From positions 1 to 24,754 of IMG/VR virus record IMGVR_UViG_3300035182_001655: DNA of 24,754 nucleotides. One strand, 5' to 3'. A model generated the notes under the pieces. The model saw nothing but the letters and a program-made list of their open reading frames with translations, was not told the origin of the DNA and did not search any database. Of this stretch, positions 2,633 to 24,754 are shown piece by piece. The position numbers and the translations under genes are program-made. The first letter of the stretch is position 1, and every line of letters starts with the position of its first letter. This DNA is from a virus.

Positions 2633-5290
2633 TTAACTATATGTTTTCATTTTTAAAGTAAAAGTTTTTTTAACTTCTTGAGTTGGAACGTATGAGTGTC
2701 TATTTATTCCCATAAGTGCTAATCCCGAAGATATAGTTGCATCAAATTGAGTTCTTTTAGCTACATTAAATTTTAACCAATCTTTTAAAGTTCTATTAAA
2801 TGGCATTGCGCCAATTTCTCCTTCTTCACGAATTGGGTACACATCATCTCCTTGACTATAAATACCAACATATTTTTTAATATATGTTTCAATTGCTGTC
2901 CAATGCATTGTAATTACATCATCACCCGAACTTGGCATACCTCCTAATTTCTTTTCTGTTTGAGAAAGTCTATTCATAGATTTATCAAATCGGCTTAATG
3001 CAAAACCTCTATAACCTCTATTATAAAAATGTTGCAATAAACGAATTTTGTTATTTTCAATTAATGCTGGCATACCGTAAAATACGCAAGCCATTAAAGC
3101 ATCTTCAAAGAATATTTCAGCAGTTTGGGGTCTAGTTATATATTCTAAAAAGAAATAATTACTAGGAACATCTTTTAACGTCATTCCTGAAACTCCATGA
3201 ATAGAACCTTTAGAACCTAAGTTATATTCAGAACCATTTTCAGTTTCTTCTAAATGGCTATCTTGAACAGAATCTACATCATAGTTATCAATACCAGCAC
3301 AAAGACAATCATCATTTAAAGGATGTTTACTTAATCCTCCAAATACATTTCTTTTCATTTGCCATTTATTCTGCATTTCTTTTGGAGGAATCCATGCTAA
3401 TAAAAACCTACCTCTTTCGCTAGGTGTCCAAATAACTTCTGTATCTTGAACTCCATCTTTCCATGAAAAATTACCACGAACTAAATTATCTTGTATTTCA
3501 TGCTCTTGATTATGGTTTAATTGGTCATTAATTTTATCCATATCAAATAATGTAGAAATTAATTCATCTCTAAATGCTTCATCAATAGTCATTGGATTTG
3601 CTCTTAATTCTTCATTATAAAGAATATCAGATTGTTTTCTTTTAGATTTTCTAACTGCTTCTAAATATTGAATTGACCCAATTTCTTTTTTTATTCCTTG
3701 AGCATTATAGAAAAATTCACCATTTAATAAAATAGTATGACAAATTCCATATTTATCTGTAAATTCCTCCATATTTTTATGTGCTGGTAAGAAATAAGCA
3801 TAAAGTCCTGTAGGTGTCATATTAGTACCCTCATTTCTTTTTTTAATTACCGAACCTAAATACATTTTATGAAATTCTAAACCTCCTTTAGCCATAGGAT
3901 TAACAGTAGAACCTACAAATATTTTACCTACAATTCTACCACCATTATTAATAGTTGGAGATACACGACCCCAATGTGTAATAAGATTAAAAGGTTTTAA
4001 TGGTTTACTTGCTTCGTCAATTAAATATCTAAACATTCTTTGACCATCATAAGCACCATCAGTTGTTGTTTTCCAATCTAGTAATGTATTTAGATAATCG
4101 TCAGTATTGCTATTTCTTTTCTTTTTAGTTGCTTTACTTGCATCTGATGGCTTGGCGAATTCAATCTCTGTTTTACTATCTATTTTACCTTTAATTACTG
4201 GAATAAAAAAAAATGGTAAATTTTGTACTCCATAAGACATTTTTAAAAATGCTTCTTGAGCATCATCTCCTGTTTTAGAAGTCATACCTATTTTAGCATT
4301 ACTCGTACTTGTACCATCATTTATAAATTCGCAAATTATTTGATAAGTAAAACCAGTTCTTCTTGATTTAACAAATAACTCACCCAAACAACGTCTATCT
4401 AAAACACAAGCCTTAGTAAAATAGAACATATCTCTTTGAGCATATCGGAAATCCATATAATCCCCAGTATCTAACATTTTAATCCATTGTAATGCCATAT
4501 AATGCGCTCCTGTTATATATACTGGTTCTCCATTATTCATAAACCAAATACCTTCTCTACGTCGCCTAAATTCTTCTATTATAAATTCAGTATAAATTTC
4601 TTCATTTTCAGGAGTAAGTCCTTTAGGTAATTCTTGTCTACGCCAATATTGTTCTTCTTTTGGTAAATTGGCAAATAATATTTTTTTCTTCGCTATAGGA
4701 ACTTTTGGAAGCATTACATTCAATCCGTCAAGTGTAATTACTTCTCCTTTTGTACCTAAAGGGCAAAGCATAACACTATCTGTTTTTTCATCATGCCATT
4801 TTTGATGATAGTCTTTTAACGGTAGAAATTCTTGATTTGAAAAACGTTCTGGAAATCCCCTTTTAAACTCTCGTTCTCCTAAATTAATATTATCAGCTGC
4901 TAATTGCATTTTAAGTTCTAAAACACCCGAATTAATATCATTTATAGCTTTAAATAAAACTGGCTTTGCTCTTACTGCTTGACCATGCATAGTAGGGTCT
5001 ACTTTTATTAAATCTACACTTTTTCTTAATGCTGTTCTTAATATTTCAATAGAGTTTTCTCCAGCATTAATTAAATCTTGAATATATTTTTTTAGTTTAT
5101 CTTGTCTAGGTGAATTTTGAGAATTTTCCCAAGAATGAATAAGTTGTTTTGTAGATTGAAAACTATCTATTTTAGATTGCATTACAGCTTGTAATTTTTC
5201 GCTTTTTACATCTGAAATTACTACAGTATAATTTAATACATTAATACAATCTTTAATAGCTATTTCAATATCAGAAGATAAATTTTTCAT
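2633..5290 (-). CDS. terL: Terminase large subunit (packaging ATPase-nuclease)
   Basis: The 885-aa protein is a packaging motor. It would dock on the portal, hydrolyse ATP to translocate DNA and cut it. The ATPase half carries a Walker A-like VKSRRTGFTY (about 307-316), a Walker B RYLIDEA (421-427, Asp425-Glu426) and a coupling motif FVGST (458-462). The C-terminal half has the RNase H-like nuclease signature: GIDNYD (Asp668), LIENN (Glu745) and SGDD (788-791). It is longer than typical TerL (500-650 aa). The excess is an N-terminal helical region of about 200 residues and insertions around 470-640. It starts 28 nt beyond a -7-like box at 5310-5317 and lies behind a terminator, so it begins its own transcription unit, followed by the portal. 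No small terminase is recognisable nearby. Confidence 0.9.
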   Translation of the reverse strand: MKNLSSDIEIAIKDCINVLNYTVVISDVKSEKLQAVMQSKIDSFQSTKQLIHSWENSQNSPRQDKLKKYIQDLINAGENSIEILRTALRKSVDLIKVDPTMHGQAVRAKPVLFKAINDINSGVLELKMQLAADNINLGEREFKRGFPERFSNQEFLPLKDYHQKWHDEKTDSVMLCPLGTKGEVITLDGLNVMLPKVPIAKKKILFANLPKEEQYWRRQELPKGLTPENEEIYTEFIIEEFRRRREGIWFMNNGEPVYITGAHYMALQWIKMLDTGDYMDFRYAQRDMFYFTKACVLDRRCLGELFVKSRRTGFTYQIICEFINDGTSTSNAKIGMTSKTGDDAQEAFLKMSYGVQNLPFFFIPVIKGKIDSKTEIEFAKPSDASKATKKKRNSNTDDYLNTLLDWKTTTDGAYDGQRMFRYLIDEASKPLKPFNLITHWGRVSPTINNGGRIVGKIFVGSTVNPMAKGGLEFHKMYLGSVIKKRNEGTNMTPTGLYAYFLPAHKNMEEFTDKYGICHTILLNGEFFYNAQGIKKEIGSIQYLEAVRKSKRKQSDILYNEELRANPMTIDEAFRDELISTLFDMDKINDQLNHNQEHEIQDNLVRGNFSWKDGVQDTEVIWTPSERGRFLLAWIPPKEMQNKWQMKRNVFGGLSKHPLNDDCLCAGIDNYDVDSVQDSHLEETENGSEYNLGSKGSIHGVSGMTLKDVPSNYFFLEYITRPQTAEIFFEDALMACVFYGMPALIENNKIRLLQHFYNRGYRGFALSRFDKSMNRLSQTEKKLGGMPSSGDDVITMHWTAIETYIKKYVGIYSQGDDVYPIREEGEIGAMPFNRTLKDWLKFNVAKRTQFDATISSGLALMGINRHSYVPTQEVKKTFTLKMKTYS

Positions 5291-5309
5291 TTAATTAGAA
5301 TAATTTTAT

Positions 5310-5317
5310 CAAAAATA
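5310..5317 (-). promoter_or_regulatory. Probable terL promoter -7 box
   Basis: On the minus strand TATTTTTG matches TAnnTTTG and lies 19 nt before the terL start, just after a terminator. No good -33 element and no TTAGTTA palindrome are visible, so this promoter differs from those of the portal and fibre genes. Confidence 0.45.
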
Positions 5318-5329
5318 CGATTTTTTTAA

Positions 5330-5364
5330 TAAATAAAAAAAACCTCTAAATTACTAGAGGTTTT
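5330..5364 (-). terminator. Rho-independent terminator
   Basis: On the minus strand AACCTCTA pairs with TAGAGGTT across a six-base loop and is followed by a run of T. It ends the operon running from the lysis genes through the 213-aa virion protein and insulates terL. Confidence 0.85.
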
Positions 5365-5386
5365 ATCTTTCTAAAGAATATTTATA

Positions 5387-6028
5387 TTATACTACTACTA
5401 ATCCAATTTTAATTGCTGAGTTAAATGACGCAACTCCAATGTTTGAAACGGTAATTACTGCTGAACCCGAACTAGGAGTAACTGTAATAACTGCTTTTCC
5501 TGTTCCACCATTCATGTTTACAGTAGGCAAAACATTACTTGTTGCTGTAATTTTGCTATTTGTAAAAGTGAAATTAAATTCAGTATCTAAAGCATCACTT
5601 AAGGCTACTGTTGTTATAATAGTATTCAAAGTATTTGAAACTACAGTTGTATTTTTTGATGTTCCTTGAGTTACACTTGCTTTATCAGCAATCAAATCAC
5701 TAACAGTAGCGTTAGTTGGATTAGCAATAACAGCAACTAAATCTTTAACACAAAGGTCAAAGCTACCATAAGAAGTTCCAGTACTATCTAAAAATGAAGT
5801 CCATGATTGTGGTTCATCAAAAGGTAATAATAATTTGCTATAACTTACAGAATTTGAATCTGTTTTAGGAACTAACAAAATTTTTGTTCCTGAGAAATCA
5901 GTAACAATACCAGTTGTTTCATTAGGTTCAGTTTCTTTGTACTTAATAATGTAATCACCTTTTGTGTAGGCTTTTCCAGCAACTAAAAATGTTGTTGCGC
6001 TGTACGATGCAATTTTAATCTTACTCAT
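5387..6028 (-). CDS. Beta-rich virion or head-decoration protein
   Basis: The family is not recognised. The 213-aa product is Ser/Thr/Val/Asn-rich with few charges, especially from residue 110 on (VTPSSGSAVITVSNIGVASF). This pattern is typical of Ig-like or jelly-roll virion proteins. Near residues 150-200 (FTFTNSKITATSN and following) it resembles bacterial Ig-like surface domains. No signal peptide or membrane segment is visible. It is the last gene before a strong terminator and lies between the GroES-like protein gene and terL. A capsid decoration or tail-spike accessory role is plausible but inferred from composition and place only. Confidence 0.5.
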   Translation of the reverse strand: MSKIKIASYSATTFLVAGKAYTKGDYIIKYKETEPNETTGIVTDFSGTKILLVPKTDSNSVSYSKLLLPFDEPQSWTSFLDSTGTSYGSFDLCVKDLVAVIANPTNATVSDLIADKASVTQGTSKNTTVVSNTLNTIITTVALSDALDTEFNFTFTNSKITATSNVLPTVNMNGGTGKAVITVTPSSGSAVITVSNIGVASFNSAIKIGLVVV

Positions 6029-13018: not shown

Positions 13019-14572
13019 ATGAGTGAAAACAAAATTGTGAAAGATATTTCACAAGGACAGCCAGCAAAAGATTTAATTCTAAGCGGTGTAAATAAAGTTT
13101 GTGATGTAGTAGGTTCTACATTAGGTTATAGAGGTAAAACAGTTTTAATTGAAACTGATGGATATATGCCTGAAATTACAAAAGATGGTTATAAAGTATT
13201 ACATTCTATTTATTTAGAAAATCCTGTAGAAGCACTTGCTTCGGAAGTAATAAAAGAAGCATCTAAAAAAACCGTTGATTTTGCTGGGGATGCAACTACT
13301 ACCACAGCTATTTTAGCACAAGCATTTTTACAAAATTCATTTAAAGAATTAGAAAAAGGAAAATCGCCTATAGATATTAAGCAAGATATAGATAAATCTG
13401 TAGAATTAGTAGTAGAATATCTTAAAGAAATATCAATCCCAATAACTGATAAATTAATTTATGATATAGCCAAAACTTCTGCTAATGGCGATGAAGAAAT
13501 TGCTAAATTAGTACAAGATGCTTTTTTACAAACAGGAGAAAATGGAGCAGTAAGCCACGAAAGAAGTAATACGGATGAAACTTTTATAGATAAAATAGAA
13601 GGCACTTTAGTTGAAAGTGGATTTATAGACGAAGGTTTTATAAATGCTCCATCTAGCCAATCTGTTATTTTTGATAATGATCCAATGGTTTTATGTTCTT
13701 TAATTAAAATACAAACTAAAAATGAAATTTTACCATTTTTAGAATATGCTGTTTCTGTTAATAGAGATTTAGTAATTATTTCTGAAATGGAGTTTAATCT
13801 TGCTAATATGGTATTGGCAAATAAAATTAAAGGAAATAGTAATTTTGTTATTGTAAATCCTCCTAGTGGTGGTAAAAAACGTAAAGATTTAATGAAAGAC
13901 TTAGCTTTGGTTTGCGGAACTAATGCAATTGATTCTTTATCGGGAAATGATTTTACAAATAGAGAAACAATGTTTTTAGGAACTGCTAAAAAAGTTTCAA
14001 TTACATGTTCAAATACTATTGTAACTCATAGTGGAATGGTTGATAATTTGCCAATTGAAGGAAAAATAAAAGAATTAAAAGAATCAATTACCGATAGTAC
14101 TAATGAAGGTGAGAAAAAATATATCATGGAACGAATTTCAAAACTTCATGGAGGTATTTCAGTAATAAAAGTAGGCGGTATTACTCCTAGTGAAGTTGAT
14201 GAAAAAATTGATAGAGTTGATGATGCTATTTGTGCAGTTCGTTCGGCTAAAGAAGAAGGTGTTGTTGCTGGAGGAGGAATTGCTTTGAAAAACGCAAGTG
14301 ATTATTTGAGTTTAGATGAAATAACTAAAAAATCCTTATATGCTCCATATAATAAAATATTATCAAATGCTAATATTAAAGAGATTTTACAAACAAGAAA
14401 TTATCCTATAGGCTATGACGTAAAAAACTTTAAGGAAGTAAATATGATTGATACTGGTATTGTAGATTGTACTAAAGGTGTTCGTAACGCTTTAATAAAT
14501 GCGGTTTCAGCAAGTAATAATTTGCTAATGACAGATAATGTAATAACATTAAAAAGAATTACACATGAGTAA
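13019..14572 (+). CDS. groEL: Phage-encoded chaperonin GroEL
   Basis: The 517-aa product is a GroEL/Hsp60 subunit with the equatorial ATPase residues intact: ITKDG (Asp56), GDATTTT (Asp91, in place of GDGTTT) and RVDDAICAVRSAKEEG (Asp402), matching Asp52, Asp87 and Asp398 of E. coli GroEL. The highly conserved GVVAGGGIAL follows at 414-423. The apical domain (about 195-370) is more divergent, with GFIDEGFINAP in place of the RGYLSPYF region. The C-terminal GGM tail is absent, which makes it shorter than host GroEL (about 545 aa). It would fold virion proteins, probably with the GroES encoded next to it. It has its own promoter 35 nt upstream, divergent from the fibre gene. Divergence throughout argues for a phage lineage rather than recent capture. 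Confidence 0.93.
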   Translation: MSENKIVKDISQGQPAKDLILSGVNKVCDVVGSTLGYRGKTVLIETDGYMPEITKDGYKVLHSIYLENPVEALASEVIKEASKKTVDFAGDATTTTAILAQAFLQNSFKELEKGKSPIDIKQDIDKSVELVVEYLKEISIPITDKLIYDIAKTSANGDEEIAKLVQDAFLQTGENGAVSHERSNTDETFIDKIEGTLVESGFIDEGFINAPSSQSVIFDNDPMVLCSLIKIQTKNEILPFLEYAVSVNRDLVIISEMEFNLANMVLANKIKGNSNFVIVNPPSGGKKRKDLMKDLALVCGTNAIDSLSGNDFTNRETMFLGTAKKVSITCSNTIVTHSGMVDNLPIEGKIKELKESITDSTNEGEKKYIMERISKLHGGISVIKVGGITPSEVDEKIDRVDDAICAVRSAKEEGVVAGGGIALKNASDYLSLDEITKKSLYAPYNKILSNANIKEILQTRNYPIGYDVKNFKEVNMIDTGIVDCTKGVRNALINAVSASNNLLMTDNVITLKRITHE

Positions 14573-14861
14573 CGAATTTAAAGGAAAAGCACTAAACTAT
14601 GTTATTGTTTTAAAAGAATTAATAGTTGAAAATAAAACTGCTGGTGGATTTAACGTAAAGTCAGATGTAGATGCCAATGAAAAAAATAAAAGAGGATTAG
14701 TCGTGAGCGTTGGTAATCTTTGTCCTAAAGATGAAGATGGAAATAAAACAGTTTGCGAAGGTCAAGAAGTAATATATGATAAATATAAGGCAAGCGATTT
14801 AACTTTAGATGGAGTTACTTACCAATGTGTTTATTATTCAGATTTGATTATGGTTTTTTAA
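14565..14861 (+). CDS. groES: Phage-encoded co-chaperonin GroES
   Basis: The 98-aa product has the GroES order. A mobile loop at about 21-35 (ENKTAGGFNV, matching the KSAGGIVL loop that docks on GroEL) comes first, then RGLVVSVGN (43-51), a VKVGD-like segment CEGQEVIYDKY and a final YSDLIMVF. It overlaps the last codons of groEL by 8 nt, so translation is coupled and the two proteins should be made together. The order groEL-groES is the reverse of the usual bacterial groES-groEL operon. It is followed by a bidirectional terminator. Confidence 0.88.
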   Translation: MSNEFKGKALNYVIVLKELIVENKTAGGFNVKSDVDANEKNKRGLVVSVGNLCPKDEDGNKTVCEGQEVIYDKYKASDLTLDGVTYQCVYYSDLIMVF

Positions 14862-19925: not shown

Positions 19926-20060
19926 GCGCTAACGGTCGAGGCTAAGAATAGGCAGGGATAACGAGCGACACCCTTTCAGCCTACATAAATGATAAAACGA
20001 AGCTCGCAGGCTTGATTAAGCACATACGCCCTGCTTATTTTTAGCCTTTGTTATAGGGCG
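19926..20060 (+). repeat. attC-like site A
   Basis: The left core GCGCTAACG is at 19926-19934 and the right core GTTATAGGGC at 20050-20059. The stem 19940-19957 pairs with 20029-20046 at 16 of 18 positions, with a loop of about 70 nt. The left core has no complementary start found upstream, so the beginning of this first cassette is unclear. Confidence 0.8.
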
Positions 20061-20077
20061 TTTTTAATTCAAATAAA

Positions 20078-20338
20078 ATGAGAAATTGTTGCCAAATTAT
20101 TAGTCAGATGATTGAGAAAATACCAACTGACAAAACTGATTTTATTAAAGATTTACAGTGGAATTATGAAGATGCAAGTTATAAAGCACCCGAAGAAACT
20201 TTGCAATGGCATAGAACACAATCAACTTTAATAAAACATATTCCAAAACCAAGTGAAAATTGGGAATTTGAAGTATTAAGTATATTCACAACTCAATCAG
20301 TTGAAGATATTCGGAGTGCTGTCCAAAATGCCCTATAA
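20078..20338 (+). CDS. Protein of unknown function (cassette 2)
   Basis: The 86-aa product (MRNCCQIISQMIEKIPTDKT...) has no recognised motif. It looks like a small soluble alpha/beta protein with a helix-rich N-terminus. It starts 19 nt after the right core of site A and stops inside the left core of site B, filling its cassette exactly. The cassette's start (GTTATAGGGC) and its left core (GCCCTATAAT, 20329-20338) are complementary except for one base. Confidence 0.65.
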   Translation: MRNCCQIISQMIEKIPTDKTDFIKDLQWNYEDASYKAPEETLQWHRTQSTLIKHIPKPSENWEFEVLSIFTTQSVEDIRSAVQNAL

Positions 20339-20454
20339 TAGTCGAGTATTGGCGTAGTGCCATCACTAATGTTTAATTGAAAACAAAAACTTAAAAATAT
20401 GTATAAAAGATTAATTGGAAAACTAAAGGCATTACGCCAATACTTTGTTAGGCG
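20331..20454 (+). repeat. attC-like site B
   Basis: The stem 20346-20361 pairs with 20428-20443 with one mismatch. The right core GTTAGGC (20447-20453) fits the integron consensus GTTRRRY exactly. The left core is degenerate, ending TATAAT rather than TATAAC, which might weaken recombination. Confidence 0.8.
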
Positions 20455-20638
20455 TAGTTATTCTATTTGGTACGGAGTGAAATTTGAAAGCGGATATAGA
20501 TATAAAATGATAAAGCACTCGAATTTATACTTGTTAGAAAAACATCATTATCTACTGCTTGATATTGGATGGGAAAGATTTACTGGTGTTGATGCGGGAT
20601 TTTCGAGTGCTTGGTGTTGGTATAGGATGAAACTATAA
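20399..20638 (+). CDS. Protein of unknown function whose frame starts inside attC site B (cassette 3)
   Basis: The open frame gives 79 aa (MYKRLIGKLKALRQYFVRRS...). Its first ATG lies in the loop of site B, and residues of the first 17 codons are encoded by the attC stem. If translation starts within the cassette, the first ATG is at 20507 and the product is 43 aa (MIKHSNLYLLEKHHYLLLDI...). The C-terminal half, with DIGWERFTGVDAGFSSAWCW, looks like real protein. The longer form would be a fusion created by cassette insertion. No family is recognised. Confidence 0.45.
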   Translation: MYKRLIGKLKALRQYFVRRSYSIWYGVKFESGYRYKMIKHSNLYLLEKHHYLLLDIGWERFTGVDAGFSSAWCWYRMKL

Positions 20639-20641
20639 TTA

Positions 20642-20694
20642 CGCCTAACTACTTGCTAACAACGATAAAAGTATTACTTTTCTATGTTAGTGCC
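20642..20694 (+). repeat. Short attC-like site C1
   Basis: The left core CGCCTAAC (20642-20649) is complementary to this cassette's start at 20447. A compact hairpin at 20656-20690 (CTAACAACGATAAAAG against CTTTTCTATGTTAG, one or two bulges) leads to the right core GTTAGTGCC (20686-20694). At 53 bp it is near the lower limit of known attC lengths. Confidence 0.65.
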
Positions 20695-20741
20695 TATAAA
20701 ATATAGCAACGGTGACTATTAAAGTAGTCTTGCCTATAACG
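20646..20741 (+). repeat. 96-bp exact repeat, copy 1
   Basis: This segment is identical to 23819-23914. It starts at the TAAC of one left core and ends at the TAACG of the next, and carries site C1 plus a 46-bp ORF-less stretch containing a small GACTA/TAGTC hairpin. The sequences on both sides of the two copies are unrelated. Confidence 0.95.
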
Positions 20742-20825
20742 GCGGATGATAGTGGCTGTTTGCCACTACAGAAGTTGTTTCGGAGAAAAATGGTTATGCA
20801 AATAGCCATTATCATATGTTATCAC
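20733..20825 (+). repeat. attC-like site C2
   Basis: The left core CCTATAACG ends at 20741 and the right core GTTATCAC is at 20818-20825. The stem 20746-20763 pairs with 20798-20815 at 16 of 18 positions. Its left core does not match the start of the short unit before it (GTTAGTGCC), which hints at a past rearrangement. Confidence 0.75.
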
Positions 20826-20888
20826 TAGTGCATTTATGTATTTAAAATTAACGGATTGAGCGTCCTTAAAAAACTCAAAACAAATATT

Positions 20889-21065
20889 ATGAAAAAAGTA
20901 ATTTTATTAATCGTTTTAGCATTTTCATTAAGTATAAATGCACAAGAAAAATCAGGAGATAACTTTCAAAACACGATAAACATGGAAAATAGCAATGAAG
21001 TTCAAAAAACCACTAATGTAGGCAATGAAGCTAATACCTTGTTACCTGCTGATGCGGTTAATTAG
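20889..21065 (+). CDS. Small secreted protein of unknown function
   Basis: The 58-aa product has a clear Sec signal peptide (MKKVILLIVLAFSLSINAQ, cleavage likely after INA). It leaves a mature peptide of about 39 residues rich in Asn, Thr and Glu. The start is the ATG at 20889, because the upstream in-frame ATG (20856) would spoil the signal. No family is recognised. It shares one cassette with the membrane protein gene that begins 51 nt later. A secreted peptide beside a membrane protein could be a functional pair, but this is inference. Confidence 0.6.
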   Translation: MKKVILLIVLAFSLSINAQEKSGDNFQNTINMENSNEVQKTTNVGNEANTLLPADAVN

Positions 21066-21116
21066 GACAAAACTTAAATTGGAATACGAAACAAAAACAT
21101 TTTAAATTTTTAAGCG

Positions 21117-21692
21117 ATGGAAACAATTACGATTTTAATTATTTTCGGTTTTATGGGATGGTTTTTTGCTAAATCATTGCGGACTGAAACTGCAAGTAAA
21201 AGCAACATTACTCGAATTGATGATAAGAATTGGATAGTGAATAACGAATTTGTATCATTTGAAGAAGATACTCAAATTCTTAGATTTAAACAGGAAATGG
21301 AAGATAAAAAGCATTACTACAATTATGAAAGCGAAAAATTAAGCAGGGACAGAGAACGAATATTTAAAGATTGGATGAAAACAACACAAGCTATTCACAA
21401 CCATTCTGATTTGAAAAATTGTGTAACGGAAGAAAAGTTAGAGGCGATAACAGAAAAATTCGATAAGTATCTTTTTATGTGCAAAAAACTTGGCGAAACA
21501 ACAATGATATTGAGCAAGGAAGAGTTTTTAATCAAAGAAGAAAATCCGATGTTTTGTGTTGATTGGACTAATATGATGTGGTTTCCGAAACGCTTAGGAA
21601 TTTATGAAATACATAATGAGAAAACCGCAAAGTATTACAAAGGCAATATGAGTGAACTGATAGAAAAAGAATTTGAAACGAAATGGTATTAA
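21117..21692 (+). CDS. Membrane-anchored protein of unknown function
   Basis: The 191-aa product has one N-terminal membrane helix (about 3-19, TITILIIFGFMGWFFAKSL) and a large charged soluble part. The part at about 50-105 is helical and highly charged, and a C-terminal region with FCVDWTNMMWFPKRLGIYEI follows. It is probably oriented with the soluble domain in the cytoplasm. No catalytic motif or family is recognised. It is the largest gene in the array. The start context AAGCGATGGAAA also precedes the gene at 22731. Confidence 0.65.
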   Translation: METITILIIFGFMGWFFAKSLRTETASKSNITRIDDKNWIVNNEFVSFEEDTQILRFKQEMEDKKHYYNYESEKLSRDRERIFKDWMKTTQAIHNHSDLKNCVTEEKLEAITEKFDKYLFMCKKLGETTMILSKEEFLIKEENPMFCVDWTNMMWFPKRLGIYEIHNEKTAKYYKGNMSELIEKEFETKWY

Positions 21693-21761
21693 AAGTGCGT
21701 AGGCAAAAATTTAAAATGTTTTTGAACCGAAATGTTATTTAGAACACGAATGTAGCATTTG

Positions 21762-21898
21762 CAGGTAACGTTTTGCAGATACCCGAAGGAGGGGATTACG
21801 AAGCACAAAATTTAAAATTAATTCAAATGTTTAACCGAAGCAAAAATGTTCATATAACCACTAAAACCCCTCTTTTGGGTATGTGCTGTTATAAGCCG
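21762..21898 (+). repeat. attC-like site D
   Basis: The left core is GTAACGTTTTGC (21765-21776) and the right core GTTATAAGCCG (21888-21898). The stem 21779-21794 pairs with 21867-21882 at 14 of 16 positions. The left core (GCAGGTAAC) does not match the start of the preceding cassette (GTTATCAC), so two cassettes were probably fused between 20826 and 21761. Confidence 0.8.
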
Positions 21899-21926
21899 TT
21901 TTTTATACTCATAAACACAAATAACT

Positions 21927-22172
21927 ATGTTTAACTACGCAGCAATTGACAAAACACCAACAGTAACTCAAATAAAAGCCATTATTGAGTATATGGAAAA
22001 AGACCCAAATGTAAAATATAATTTTTCTAATATGATGGGTATGCAAAGACTTGAACCAAATAAAATTTTACTTGATTTAAACAACGCTCATTTTGGAACA
22101 ACCTATGATATTTTATTTAATGATGAGAACGAAATTATCAGTTTTAAGCAGAATGGTTCTTGGATGTCCTAA
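21927..22172 (+). CDS. Protein of unknown function (cassette)
   Basis: The 81-aa product (MFNYAAIDKTPTVTQIKAII...) appears as a small alpha/beta domain with an N-terminal helix (VTQIKAIIEYMEKDP) and C-terminal strands (TYDILFNDENEIISFKQNGS). No family is recognised. It fills a cassette whose start GTTATAAGCC (21888) is complementary to its left core GGCTTATAAC (22176-22185). Confidence 0.65.
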   Translation: MFNYAAIDKTPTVTQIKAIIEYMEKDPNVKYNFSNMMGMQRLEPNKILLDLNNAHFGTTYDILFNDENEIISFKQNGSWMS

Positions 22173-22175
22173 AAT

Positions 22176-22273
22176 GGCTTATAACGGAAAAGCTTGTAGC
22201 TGTATGCCAAGATAAAATGCGAATAGAAAGAAAATAGTCGTAACATATAGCTACAAGCGTATGTTAGCAAATC
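22176..22273 (+). repeat. attC-like site E
   Basis: The left core is GGCTTATAACG (22176-22186) and the right core GTTAGCAAATC (22263-22273). The stem 22192-22206 pairs with 22244-22258 with one mismatch. Confidence 0.85.
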
Positions 22274-22291
22274 GTTTATAAATTTATAATT

Positions 22292-22567
22292 ATGATAAAA
22301 ATACTTAAAATATTAAAAATCAATTTATCCTTTGTTTTTAGACATAAATGGGATAAAAAATCAAAAGAAAGAATGGATATAACTTTTAGAGATTATCGTT
22401 TCGGATTTTGGTTTAGAAAAAGCAGGATGGTTGGTAAAAAAGATTTTAAAAACGTAAATAAATGGAGTTCTAATTTAGTGAATAGCTATATTGTTGGAGT
22501 TGATTTATTTATTGCTAAATTTTGGATTTCTTTCGATTTCAACGGGATGCACTTAAATGTTTGCTAA
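22292..22567 (+). CDS. Basic protein of unknown function (cassette)
   Basis: The 91-aa product (MIKILKILKINLSFVFRHKW...) is very basic and aromatic-rich, with RFGFWFRKSRMVGKK and GVDLFIAKFWISFDF as distinct stretches. The C-terminal stretch may lie at a membrane surface. No family is recognised. Its TAA stop lies inside the TAAC left core of site F, so gene end and recombination site are fused. Confidence 0.6.
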   Translation: MIKILKILKINLSFVFRHKWDKKSKERMDITFRDYRFGFWFRKSRMVGKKDFKNVNKWSSNLVNSYIVGVDLFIAKFWISFDFNGMHLNVC

Positions 22568-22668
22568 CGTTTTGCGGCTTTGTGTCTGTTTGCCCCTTGC
22601 ACAAAGTTTCAAGTTACTACAAATGTTGATGGGGCAAATAGCACAAAACCGCTGTTATATGAAGTGCC
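22560..22668 (+). repeat. attC-like site F
   Basis: The left core TTTGCTAACG starts at 22560; the right core GTTATATGAAGTGCC is at 22654-22668. A stem at 22574-22596 pairs with 22631-22652, leaving one unpaired base in the left arm, like the extrahelical bases of attC sites. The left core matches this cassette's start GTTAGCAAA (22263). Confidence 0.88.
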
Positions 22669-22730
22669 GACTTATTTAGCACTAAACCTGAATTGAAACA
22701 CTAAACAAAAAAACAAAAAGAAAAAAAGCG

Positions 22731-23246
22731 ATGGAAAATTTAAACATTGACAAATTAATTGAAGATTTATGTTATGTAAATCCACAATACGATAAAGCTG
22801 ACATTGAACGGCTGGAAAAAGAATTTAACTGTGAAATAAGTTGCTCAACTGAAAAACACAACGCCTTGCAACTTACATACTTTTATGAAGTTGATTTTGG
22901 TAAAGAGGAAAACTTCTTTATTGAAATTGAAAGCGGAATAAACAACGGAACGCAAGTAAATAATGCTGAATGGGGAAATAATACTTTTAGCAAAACTAAA
23001 ATTATAGAAGTGTTAAAAGATTTTGTTTTAGATATGGATTTTTATGAAAAGGGAAGTTTTATGGCAAAAAAAGCACAAGCTGTTTTAGATGCTAACAAAA
23101 GTAAATTATTTGAATTTCATAGAAAAAACAATTATGATAACTACGTTACTGGCGGTAATTCTAAAATGAAATTAGACCCATTATTGAGCCAATTACGTTT
23201 AATAAATGTTTATGAAGAACAAGAAGTTTATTGTAATATTTTATAG
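22731..23246 (+). CDS. Protein of unknown function (cassette)
   Basis: The 171-aa product (MENLNIDKLIEDLCYVNPQY...) is soluble and acidic. Its features are an N-terminal helix, a strand-rich middle (LQLTYFYEVDFGKEENFFIE) and a helical part (about 95-135, KIIEVLKDFVLDMDFYEKGS). It has four cysteines but no recognised metal motif. The family is unknown. It is transcribed alone in its cassette, 62 nt after the right core of site F. Confidence 0.7.
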   Translation: MENLNIDKLIEDLCYVNPQYDKADIERLEKEFNCEISCSTEKHNALQLTYFYEVDFGKEENFFIEIESGINNGTQVNNAEWGNNTFSKTKIIEVLKDFVLDMDFYEKGSFMAKKAQAVLDANKSKLFEFHRKNNYDNYVTGGNSKMKLDPLLSQLRLINVYEEQEVYCNIL

Positions 23247-23307
23247 TGCGGTGGCTTTTTTCTTTTTGTTTTTTCTTCACGGAACTTCAATTGGAACACG
23301 TCAGCAA

Positions 23308-23405
23308 GGCATTTCATATAACGTTTTGCGTATAAGGGAAGCCGACAATTGCGTTGGCTTTGTGGGCAGGGATTGGCGGTTTACTTTATACGCTGTTATG
23401 CCTTC
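23308..23405 (+). repeat. attC-like site G
   Basis: The left core GGCATTTCATATAACG (23308-23323) is complementary to the cassette start at 22654-22668, with one mismatch over 15 bases. This is the best case in the array. The right core is GTTATGCCTTC (23395-23405); the stem 23328-23344 pairs with 23377-23393, imperfectly. Confidence 0.88.
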
Positions 23406-23433
23406 GTGCTTTTCACTAATTTAATTTAAAGAT

Positions 23434-23814
23434 ATGCCAATAGATTACAAAAAATATCCGTCAAACTGGTTGAAAGAAATAAGACCAAGAATAATGCAAA
23501 GAGCAAATAATACTTGTGAGTGTGAAGGTTGCGACTTTAAACATTTAGAAGAAGTTTGGGCAGTTCGTTACAGAGGAAGAACAACTGGTTGGTTTCGTGA
23601 TTTTGATGAAGCAAATTCATATCCTAAAACGATAGAAGGCAAACTTGGTAAAACAATCCCAAACCCAAAAAAAGTAAAAGTTATTTTAACAATAGCACAC
23701 CTTGACCACGATGAAACAAACCACGATGTTACAGACGAAAGATTAAAAGCAATGTGTCAAATATGCCATTTACGTTACGATGCTAAGGAAAAGTATCGGA
23801 GGTCTTTAGCATGA
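23434..23814 (+). CDS. HNH endonuclease-like protein (cassette)
   Basis: The 126-aa product has paired cysteines at the N-terminal side (CECEGC, Cys28-Cys33) and a C-terminal HNH region: TIAHLDHDETNH (about 86-97), then LKAMCQICHLRYDAK (105-119). His92 and Asn96 with the CxxCH at 108-112 fit the HNH metal finger, so DNA nicking or cutting activity is expected. Small HNH proteins of this type are common in phages. Here it lies inside a mobile cassette with matching ends (GTTATGCCTTC at 23395 and GAGGCATAAC at 23813), so it moves as cargo. A phage-defence or competition role is plausible, not shown. Confidence 0.8.
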   Translation: MPIDYKKYPSNWLKEIRPRIMQRANNTCECEGCDFKHLEEVWAVRYRGRTTGWFRDFDEANSYPKTIEGKLGKTIPNPKKVKVILTIAHLDHDETNHDVTDERLKAMCQICHLRYDAKEKYRRSLA

Positions 23815-23867
23815 GGCATAACTACTTGCTAACAACGATAAAAGTATTACTTTTCTATGTTAGTGCC
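23813..23867 (+). repeat. Short attC-like site H1
   Basis: The left core is GAGGCATAAC (23813-23822), complementary to the HNH cassette start. The rest of the site, including the right core GTTAGTGCC (23859-23867), is identical to site C1. Confidence 0.65.
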
Positions 23868-23914
23868 TATAAAATATAGCAACGGTGACTATTAAAGTAG
23901 TCTTGCCTATAACG
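23819..23914 (+). repeat. 96-bp exact repeat, copy 2
   Basis: Identical over 96 bp to 20646-20741, from the TAAC of one left core to the TAACG of the next. The flanks are unrelated on both sides. Confidence 0.95.
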
Positions 23915-24006
23915 TATTGGGGCTTTGCGTAGTAGCCCTTAGTAGAAACTTAAAATTAACCACGACACTTGATAGGGCTATTACGCAAAGCCCTTGTTAT
24001 GTGCCG
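23905..24006 (+). repeat. attC-like site H2
   Basis: The left core is CCTATAACG (ends 23914) and the right core GTTATGTGCCG (23996-24006). The stem 23920-23938 pairs with 23975-23993 with one mismatch in 19, the strongest stem of the array. Confidence 0.85.
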
Positions 24007-24022
24007 TAATAATTCAAAAATT

Positions 24023-24205
24023 ATGATTGAAGTAGGATTTAGCATTGATATGCACGACAAAGATGGAGATAAGTTTGACGACTGTTTAATACTCCATTTT
24101 AATGACACTTTCTTGTTAAGATTAGCTGACTTGAAAGACTTAGATAACTTGATAAAACAGTTGTCAAATATTCGGGAGGAGGTGTCTGTAAATTATGGCA
24201 CATAA
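24023..24205 (+). CDS. Small protein of unknown function (cassette)
   Basis: The 60-aa product (MIEVGFSIDMHDKDGDKFDD...) begins with strands and has DKDGDKFDD, which resembles a calcium-loop but lacks a clear partner, then a C-terminal helix (DLKDLDNLIKQLSNIREEV). The start is the ATG at 24023. An upstream in-frame ATG (23969) lies inside the stem of site H2 and is rejected. The cassette ends match: GTTATGTGCC (23996) and GGCACATAAC (24197). Confidence 0.65.
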   Translation: MIEVGFSIDMHDKDGDKFDDCLILHFNDTFLLRLADLKDLDNLIKQLSNIREEVSVNYGT

Positions 24206-24333
24206 CGGGAAAGCTAACCGATGTTCAGGAAAAGTAAGGACTGAACTTTCGGATTATGACTAGACTTACAAACACAAAACGAAAATTGAATTTAACCTAA
24301 AGACTGAATAGCGGTTAACGTATGTTATCACTT
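24197..24333 (+). repeat. attC-like site I
   Basis: The left core is GGCACATAACG (24197-24207) and the right core GTTATCACTT (24324-24333). The stem 24212-24228 pairs with 24304-24320 imperfectly (about 13 of 17). Confidence 0.7.
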
Positions 24334-24356
24334 CGGATTTTCAAACGCAAAACAAA

Positions 24357-24590
24357 ATGAAAAACTATGTAGTAGGAATACTTTCTTTATTTGAGAATGA
24401 CCTAAAATTATTTAAAATAGTAGCAGTAAACGAGTATGAAGCAGTAAAAAAAGGAATGATAGATTTTTGCGAAAATGAAGAATCTAAACAATATGAAATT
24501 GACTTGCAAAACTCAAAAGATTACCCAACAACAATAGAAGATTTATTCTACACATACGAAGAAGTACATTTCAACGTAATCGAGGTTTAA
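24357..24590 (+). CDS. Small acidic protein of unknown function (cassette)
   Basis: The 77-aa product (MKNYVVGILSLFENDLKLFK...) has a beta-alpha-beta look: a strand, KIVAVNEYEAVKKGMIDFC as a helix, then an acidic C-terminus (TIEDLFYTYEEVHFNVIEV). No family is recognised. It starts 23 nt after the right core of site I and stops 3 nt before the left core of site J. Confidence 0.65.
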   Translation: MKNYVVGILSLFENDLKLFKIVAVNEYEAVKKGMIDFCENEESKQYEIDLQNSKDYPTTIEDLFYTYEEVHFNVIEV

Positions 24591-24593
24591 GCT

Positions 24594-24732
24594 GAGTGAT
24601 AACGGTTCGCAGCCTTGATTTGTAGCCGACTTGCAAACCGTAAATTTTCGGCTACTACTAAATTAAATTATGAAAACTAAATATTAATAAACCACTGAAC
24701 GAGGCTATAAGGCAAGACTGCTGTTAGCCGTT
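24594..24732 (+). repeat. attC-like site J
   Basis: The left core GAGTGATAACG (24594-24604) is complementary to the cassette start GTTATCAC (24324); the right core is GTTAGCCGTT (24723-24732). The stem 24609-24627 pairs with 24703-24721, imperfectly. The next cassette begins here and runs off the window. Confidence 0.8.
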
Positions 24733-24754
24733 CGGTTTTTTAAACCCAAAAATA

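Follow-up and report, generated by a model that had tools for sequence, protein, structure and literature searches.

A cassette array in Bacteroidota phage DNA as part of a probable phage-borne integron lineage separate from IntI

Integrons have so far been treated as bacterial elements defined by the integrase IntI, with phages seen as occasional carriers. A classical attC site, followed along its cassette, reads gene-TAACA...CGTTA-next gene. Xer enzymes act at dif-type sites, where they serve chromosome dimer resolution. Here we analyze IMG/VR virus record IMGVR_UViG_3300035182_001655, a 24,754-bp fragment (the window, meaning this whole stretch), which carries an array of gene cassettes separated by attC-like hairpins from position 19926 to about 24730 of the plus strand. 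The array resembles the phage clusters of attC sites lacking an integrase (CALINs) that are already known: virulent phages carry them, a Polaribacter phage among these, DNA methyltransferase genes frequently accompany them, and IntI1 can use such phage-borne attC sites (Qi et al. 2023, PMC9892861). That study searched with IntI and standard attC models, and its accessible text reports neither a XerA-like integrase nor an inverted gene orientation, both of which mark the phage arrays described here. In the open-access literature we found no report of a XerA-like integrase beside arrays, of an inverted phage integron or of natural cassette turnover.

We propose, with a probability of about 0.78, that the window holds part of a phage-borne integron from a lineage separate from IntI, whose integrase would act on folded strands and whose cassettes would enter beside the integrase. 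Each cassette consists of a gene and a folded attC-like site antisense to it. A XerA-like recombinase may recognize these sites as folded strands and, in the manner of IntI, exchange a single strand at G|TT. Its preferred reaction would be insertion at an attI-like site beside the integrase. Since the gene row runs toward the integrase, incoming cassettes would be added at its promoter-distal end, opposite to what happens in a class 1 integron. Array-bearing phages without an integrase gene might use the enzyme in trans, from a co-infecting phage, a prophage or the host. Like sedentary chromosomal IntI integrons, the phage version has a tyrosine recombinase, an attI-like site and an array side by side, and its sequences point to folded sites of the R''/L''/L'/R' type, self-complementary ends and one-strand exchange at G|TT. 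Unlike in IntI integrons, the phage genes are antisense to the sites, and site spacers and stems differ. The initial annotation had read the locus as integron-type cassettes with folded attC-like sites in Bacteroidota phage DNA, which we retain; the right-core polarity and the IntI-type enzyme that it assumed give way to the results below.

The ends of the window cassettes are self-complementary. All eight cassettes for which this had been claimed bear it out: seven are complementary across 9-10 consecutive bases beginning at GTT/AAC, and the eighth (20050 with 20329; GTTATAGGGC vs GCCCTATAAT) pairs over nine bases, its sole change being a core C to T (TAAT for TAAC). Complementarity no better than in shuffled arrays had been named as grounds for rejecting the annotation; among all 40,320 permutations of the start-to-end assignments, none but the real one attains the observed number of matches, with only the seven exact pairs scored as matched by the script. 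Folded attC-type sites and complementary cassette ends, the marks of an integron, are both found in the window. The record also qualifies as a CALIN, since it holds two or more attC sites but no IntI.

Phage attC sites are antisense to their cassette genes. They read gene-TAACG...TGTTA, the reverse of the classical order, which the chromosomal examples seen here also follow. Open reading frames (ORFs) next to phage-array sites are inverted in 819 cases vs 12 canonical; those next to sites in the IntI arrays of Bacteroidota chromosomes are canonical in 271 cases vs 32. Among near-identical Flavobacterium phages from the Baltic, whole cassettes are cleanly present or absent as blocks. Of the 18 distinct junction types, 17 have the TAAC of the left core common to both ends, with 5-12 shared bases; the remaining type is apparently a blurred alignment at the same left core. 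The right core, equally conserved, is never used among these junctions. In several Flavobacterium phages, different cassette blocks abut one fixed flank, TAAC|TACAATATTAC. Since the breakpoints fall in the left core at TAA|C, which is G|TT on the opposite strand, the sites lie antisense to the genes, and the right-hand G/TT recombination first proposed for this array does not agree with natural gains and losses. DNA methyltransferase genes are the commonest recognizable cargo, at 1-4 per phage in the stretches of Baltic Flavobacterium phages that were read (L005, L332-L344).

Cassette mobility at the core is seen in isolated relatives, both in Flavobacterium phages and in the Polaribacter phage Freya. 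Freya genomes span 44.0-48.9 kb and encode one integrase, and the isolation paper makes no mention of integrons (PMC8776804). We find that this integrase belongs to the same XerA-like phage family as those beside other arrays, being 34% identical to the one at locus L145 (below). All 43,978 bp of Freya_1 match Freya_10 at 100%, and what Freya_1 lacks is a block of exactly 4,942 bp bounded by two AAC cores; the two sides are joined at AAC, 49 bp ahead of the start of the integrase gene. Other blocks are missing from Freya_2 and Freya_5, likewise ending at the attI-like site with AAC ends; the block missing from Freya_8 is an inner one, and its ends are CAAC. Freya_6 has sequence at the array locus that is absent from Freya_10. 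The 3-4 bases shared at these joins are too few for ordinary homologous recombination.

Where a phage array has a tyrosine recombinase beside it, this mostly belongs to a single XerA-like family. Nine of 76 array-bearing IMG/VR records have a tyrosine recombinase, and seven of these nine carry one recombinase family (266-289 amino acids) directly after the last cassette. The recombinases of L357, L360 and L361 fall outside this family. A protein-profile search of viral contigs gave 379 integrase relatives, and the 80 best were retained. Sixty of these loci had at least 1.5 kb upstream; although the search relied on protein sequence only, that upstream stretch contains an inverted attC site in 57 of the 60. 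Site polarity at the protein-found loci is 234:0 (inverted) upstream and 8 to 7 downstream. Across the family the integrases are 262-289 amino acids long. Most loci have an attI-like motif, TAAC|TA(C/T)TATATGTA, at a distance of about 51 bp ahead of the integrase start codon, and before the motif comes a cassette end complementary to its own cassette start; in the relatives of the window phage, the gene-3' end of the array likewise has TAAC|TACTATATGTA about 51 bp before the integrase start. Viewed in canonical attC polarity, the phage layout is the integron layout of integrase, attI and first cassette. The integron-type reading of the initial annotation is supported by relatives that hold a tyrosine recombinase with matching arrays.

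These integrases are not IntIs. The KxDR-to-HxxR distance is 53-59 residues in the phage family (58 in the comparison with IntI) and 100 in every IntI measured, and the IntI insertion of about 42 residues is lacking. On the IntI model TIGR02249 the integrase of G025 reaches 142.6 bits, far under the cut-off of 265. The enzyme with the IntI-specific insertion, which the initial annotation had suggested looking for, is not the one found beside such arrays. In trees, IntI forms one clade (100/100) and the phage integrases group apart. All 39 phage rows of the first tree fall in one clade (90/86); with chromosomal relatives added, 20 of 22 phage integrases stay together (87/96), with the deeper order unresolved. 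By sequence, the closest solved structures are archaeal XerA (4a8e, 5hxy), aligned end to end, while IntI4 aligns in two stretches. An AlphaFold model (mean predicted local distance difference test score 92.5) also matches the fold of XerA (Z 23.1, root mean square deviation 14.1 over 248 residues), along with XerH (Z 20.2, 3.9 over 263) and IntI4 (Z 20.2, 4.2 over 257). The catalytic residues (R, K, HxxR, H and Y) do not vary in the integrase alignments. Unlike Xer enzymes, the XerA-like phage integrases adjoin attC arrays.

The window phage is a relative of the Flavobacterium elemo phages, with homologous terminase, portal and chaperonin genes. The left part of the window is a tailed-phage module with portal, large terminase (TerL), endolysin, GroEL and GroES genes. 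Its TerL is 58% identical, at full length, to that of the elemo phages, and 69% identical to that of the 72.8-kb viral contig L007 (record G029), which is matched by the window portal, terminase and GroEL alike. GroEL and GroES are encoded at 13019-14861, and a cpn10 chaperonin is annotated in the elemo relatives too.

Record G029, the closest TerL relative found, has an integrase of 267 amino acids at 4786-5589 of locus L145 (minus strand). An attI-like CAAC|TACTATATGTAC lies about 51 bp ahead of this gene, and inverted attC sites extend from L145 6462 to 9287. Window cassette genes also recur in integrase-bearing arrays: the product of 21117-21692 has a 91% identical counterpart in L354, where two attC sites flank it on the upstream side of the integrase, and that of 23434-23814 has counterparts in L388 (84%) and L400 (76%). 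The window itself contains no tyrosine recombinase in its 24,754 bp and no attI, a site type that is present in the related phages. Since the contig stops inside the array, at 24754, 28 bp past the last right core, and since the closest TerL relative carries an integrase beside its array, the integrase end is probably missing beyond the right contig end, and the window's own attI and integrase would lie just past it. The array was originally described as lacking an integrase; this holds for the window and probably reflects where the contig ends. The features are as follows, with sites A to J delimited by a purpose-made hairpin finder:

19926..24729, +, cassette array: co-directional small genes between attC-like hairpins, sites antisense to genes, cut by the contig end
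19926..20056, +, attC-like site A (TAAC...GTTA, paired stem)
20078..20338, +, cassette gene, 86 amino acids, PHROG 31550 (unknown function), 66% identical to a protein of Cellulophaga phage phi17:2
20329..20453, +, attC-like site B, core mutated to TAAT
20399..20638, +, cassette ORF, 79 amino acids; its ATG lies inside site B, and translation may start further on
20646..20737, +, 92-bp insert in site C, lying between its left core and its hairpin; repeated identically at 23819-23910
20737..20824, +, hairpin of attC-like site C
21117..21692, +, cassette gene, 191 amino acids, with the counterpart in L354
21760..21894, +, attC-like site D
21927..22172, +, cassette gene (ORF), 81 amino acids
22179..22269, +, attC-like site E
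22292..22567, +, cassette gene (ORF), 91 amino acids
22562..22660, +, attC-like site F; isolated Flavobacterium phages have 82-91% identical sites
22731..23246, +, cassette gene (ORF), 171 amino acids
23316..23401, +, attC-like site G
23434..23814, +, cassette gene, HNH-endonuclease-like, 126 amino acids, with the counterparts in L388 and L400
23819..23910, +, 92-bp insert, second copy, within site H
23910..24002, +, hairpin of attC-like site H
24024..24206, +, cassette ORF, about 60 amino acids, part of ORF 23969-24205
24200..24330, +, attC-like site I
24357..24590, +, cassette gene (ORF), 77 amino acids
24597..24729, +, attC-like site J; the following cassette is cut by the contig end

The hairpin finder looks for duplexes and requires TAAC, GTTA and a paired stem. 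On the plus strand of the window it places ten sites in the array, plus one doubtful site at 23582-23728; it finds none on that strand in the phage module (1-19900). Hairpins between small rightward genes are as first described, and the number falls from twelve to ten, because the left cores at 20646 and 23819 are split from the hairpins at 20737-20824 and 23910-24002 by the 92-bp insert. The ends of this insert fall at TAAC, and it resembles a tiny cassette or a core-targeting element; it has no match elsewhere in phages by blast or, as an exact sequence, in viral contigs. At 21041, GTTACCTGC is the exact complement of the left core of site D (21760) with no hairpin before it, perhaps marking a deleted attC site. 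In Pfam and PHROG searches, most window cassette genes have no assigned function.

Sites of the window type extend to other phages. They are present in the isolated Flavobacterium phages 11b, lillamy and snusmum and in an uncultured phage of 462 kb, so that related hairpins, whose lack elsewhere would have spoken against the initial annotation, do exist in other genomes. One geometry is common to 64 distinct phage sites; their 43 distinct stems align gap-free with 98.2% of paired cells, and give a covariation score of 0.659 vs 0.151 in shuffles. In the structural regions of related phages (L007-L045), the hairpin finder detects no cluster, just two isolated sites on a single contig. A covariance model (R1), the kind of check once suggested, recovers no more than 3 of the 10 window sites with a significant E-value; a genome-wide search with it, which scores just 15 candidates per genome, missed one genome known to hold sites. 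The hairpin finder was used for these reasons. A wobble-pair test of strand stability was dropped, as the finder scores one strand and biases the outcome. The pattern of one site subtype matches 26 times in viral contigs vs twice among 84,980 genomes of bacteria and archaea, each time on a small contig of a metagenome-assembled genome. The near absence of the phage attC type from bacterial genomes (6/395) is partly an artefact of a pattern that admits short sites only: sites of this type of 124-127 bp occur beside chromosomal XerA-like integrases.

Relatives of the phage integrases are found in 90 of 296 Bacteroidota genomes at a strict threshold. This profile search was broad, and arrays occur at only part of the sampled chromosomal loci: about half of 20 sampled regions adjoin attC sites with self-complementary ends. 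Genes at these chromosomal arrays mostly have canonical polarity (47 to 7), so the inverted orientation looks, in this small sample, like a phage feature. We consider it fairly probable, at somewhat lower confidence than our reading of the window, that XerA-like integrases without the IntI domain define a second integron lineage, with genes in sense orientation in Bacteroidota chromosomes and antisense in phages, where it would swap phage genes. One bacterial locus (L147, genome G090) has phage-type attC sites and an integrase of the XerA-like family, and may be a prophage or a chromosomal array. Repeated near-perfect hairpins of 96 bp (L477 7097-7192 and 9222-9317; L480 2914-3009, 5188-5283 and 7108-7203) sit directly before attC sites, at the core, beside XerA-like integrases in bacterial arrays; they are possibly the chromosomal counterpart of the 92-bp insert. 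At several AT-rich loci, such as L131, L134 and L139, IntI is present and the hairpin finder gives no attC site.

Several observations weigh against a phage-borne integron of separate lineage. The window itself has neither integrase nor attI; XerA-like integrases occur in only 7 of the 76 array-bearing viral records, though many of these are fragments; and the array of G029 may sit at another genomic locus than that of the window. An ordinary attC cluster derived from a host IntI integron, mobilized by host IntI only, would account for the many array-bearing phages without their own integrase. A full-length IntI is encoded in 105 of 395 Bacteroidota genomes, and Polaribacter-phage attC sites are usable by IntI1 (PMC9892861). 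We nevertheless regard this origin as unlikely, given that the phage sites are opposite in polarity to the genes, that the recombinase beside phage arrays is not IntI, and that the chromosomal IntI-type attC pattern has no match in viral contigs vs matches in 23 of 395 genomes.

The arrays could also be relics, with isolates differing through homologous or RecT-mediated recombination between repeated hairpins. The hairpin cores are indeed repeated, and Freya encodes a RecT protein that might anneal short repeats, a further point against integrase-driven exchange. Yet only AAC or CAAC is shared at the Freya joins, the equally conserved right core is never used, and different blocks end against a single fixed flank beside the integrase, which together make this explanation less likely still than a host-IntI origin. 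A reading of the hairpins as terminators of transcription, or as repeats dispersed among unrelated small phage genes, fits their position between co-directional genes, and attC sites are thought to hold weak terminators (PMC9892861). This reading leaves unexplained the mutually complementary cassette ends and the linkage to a recombinase, and is contradicted by the isolate comparisons, with their precise presence and absence of cassettes; we hold it to be highly improbable.

Phages appear to have their own version of the integron, with reversed cassettes and with isolates that differ solely in the cassettes they hold. The phage integrase lacks the domain credited with IntI's ability to read folded single strands, which makes it testable whether the IntI-specific insertion is needed to recombine folded attC sites. 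Freya isolates, of which Freya_1 and Freya_10 are fully identical outside the array, provide a ready experimental system. If our reading is true, tailed phages, including isolated ones like Freya, swap accessory genes in nature, and there would be a dedicated phage route for trading genes such as DNA methyltransferases.

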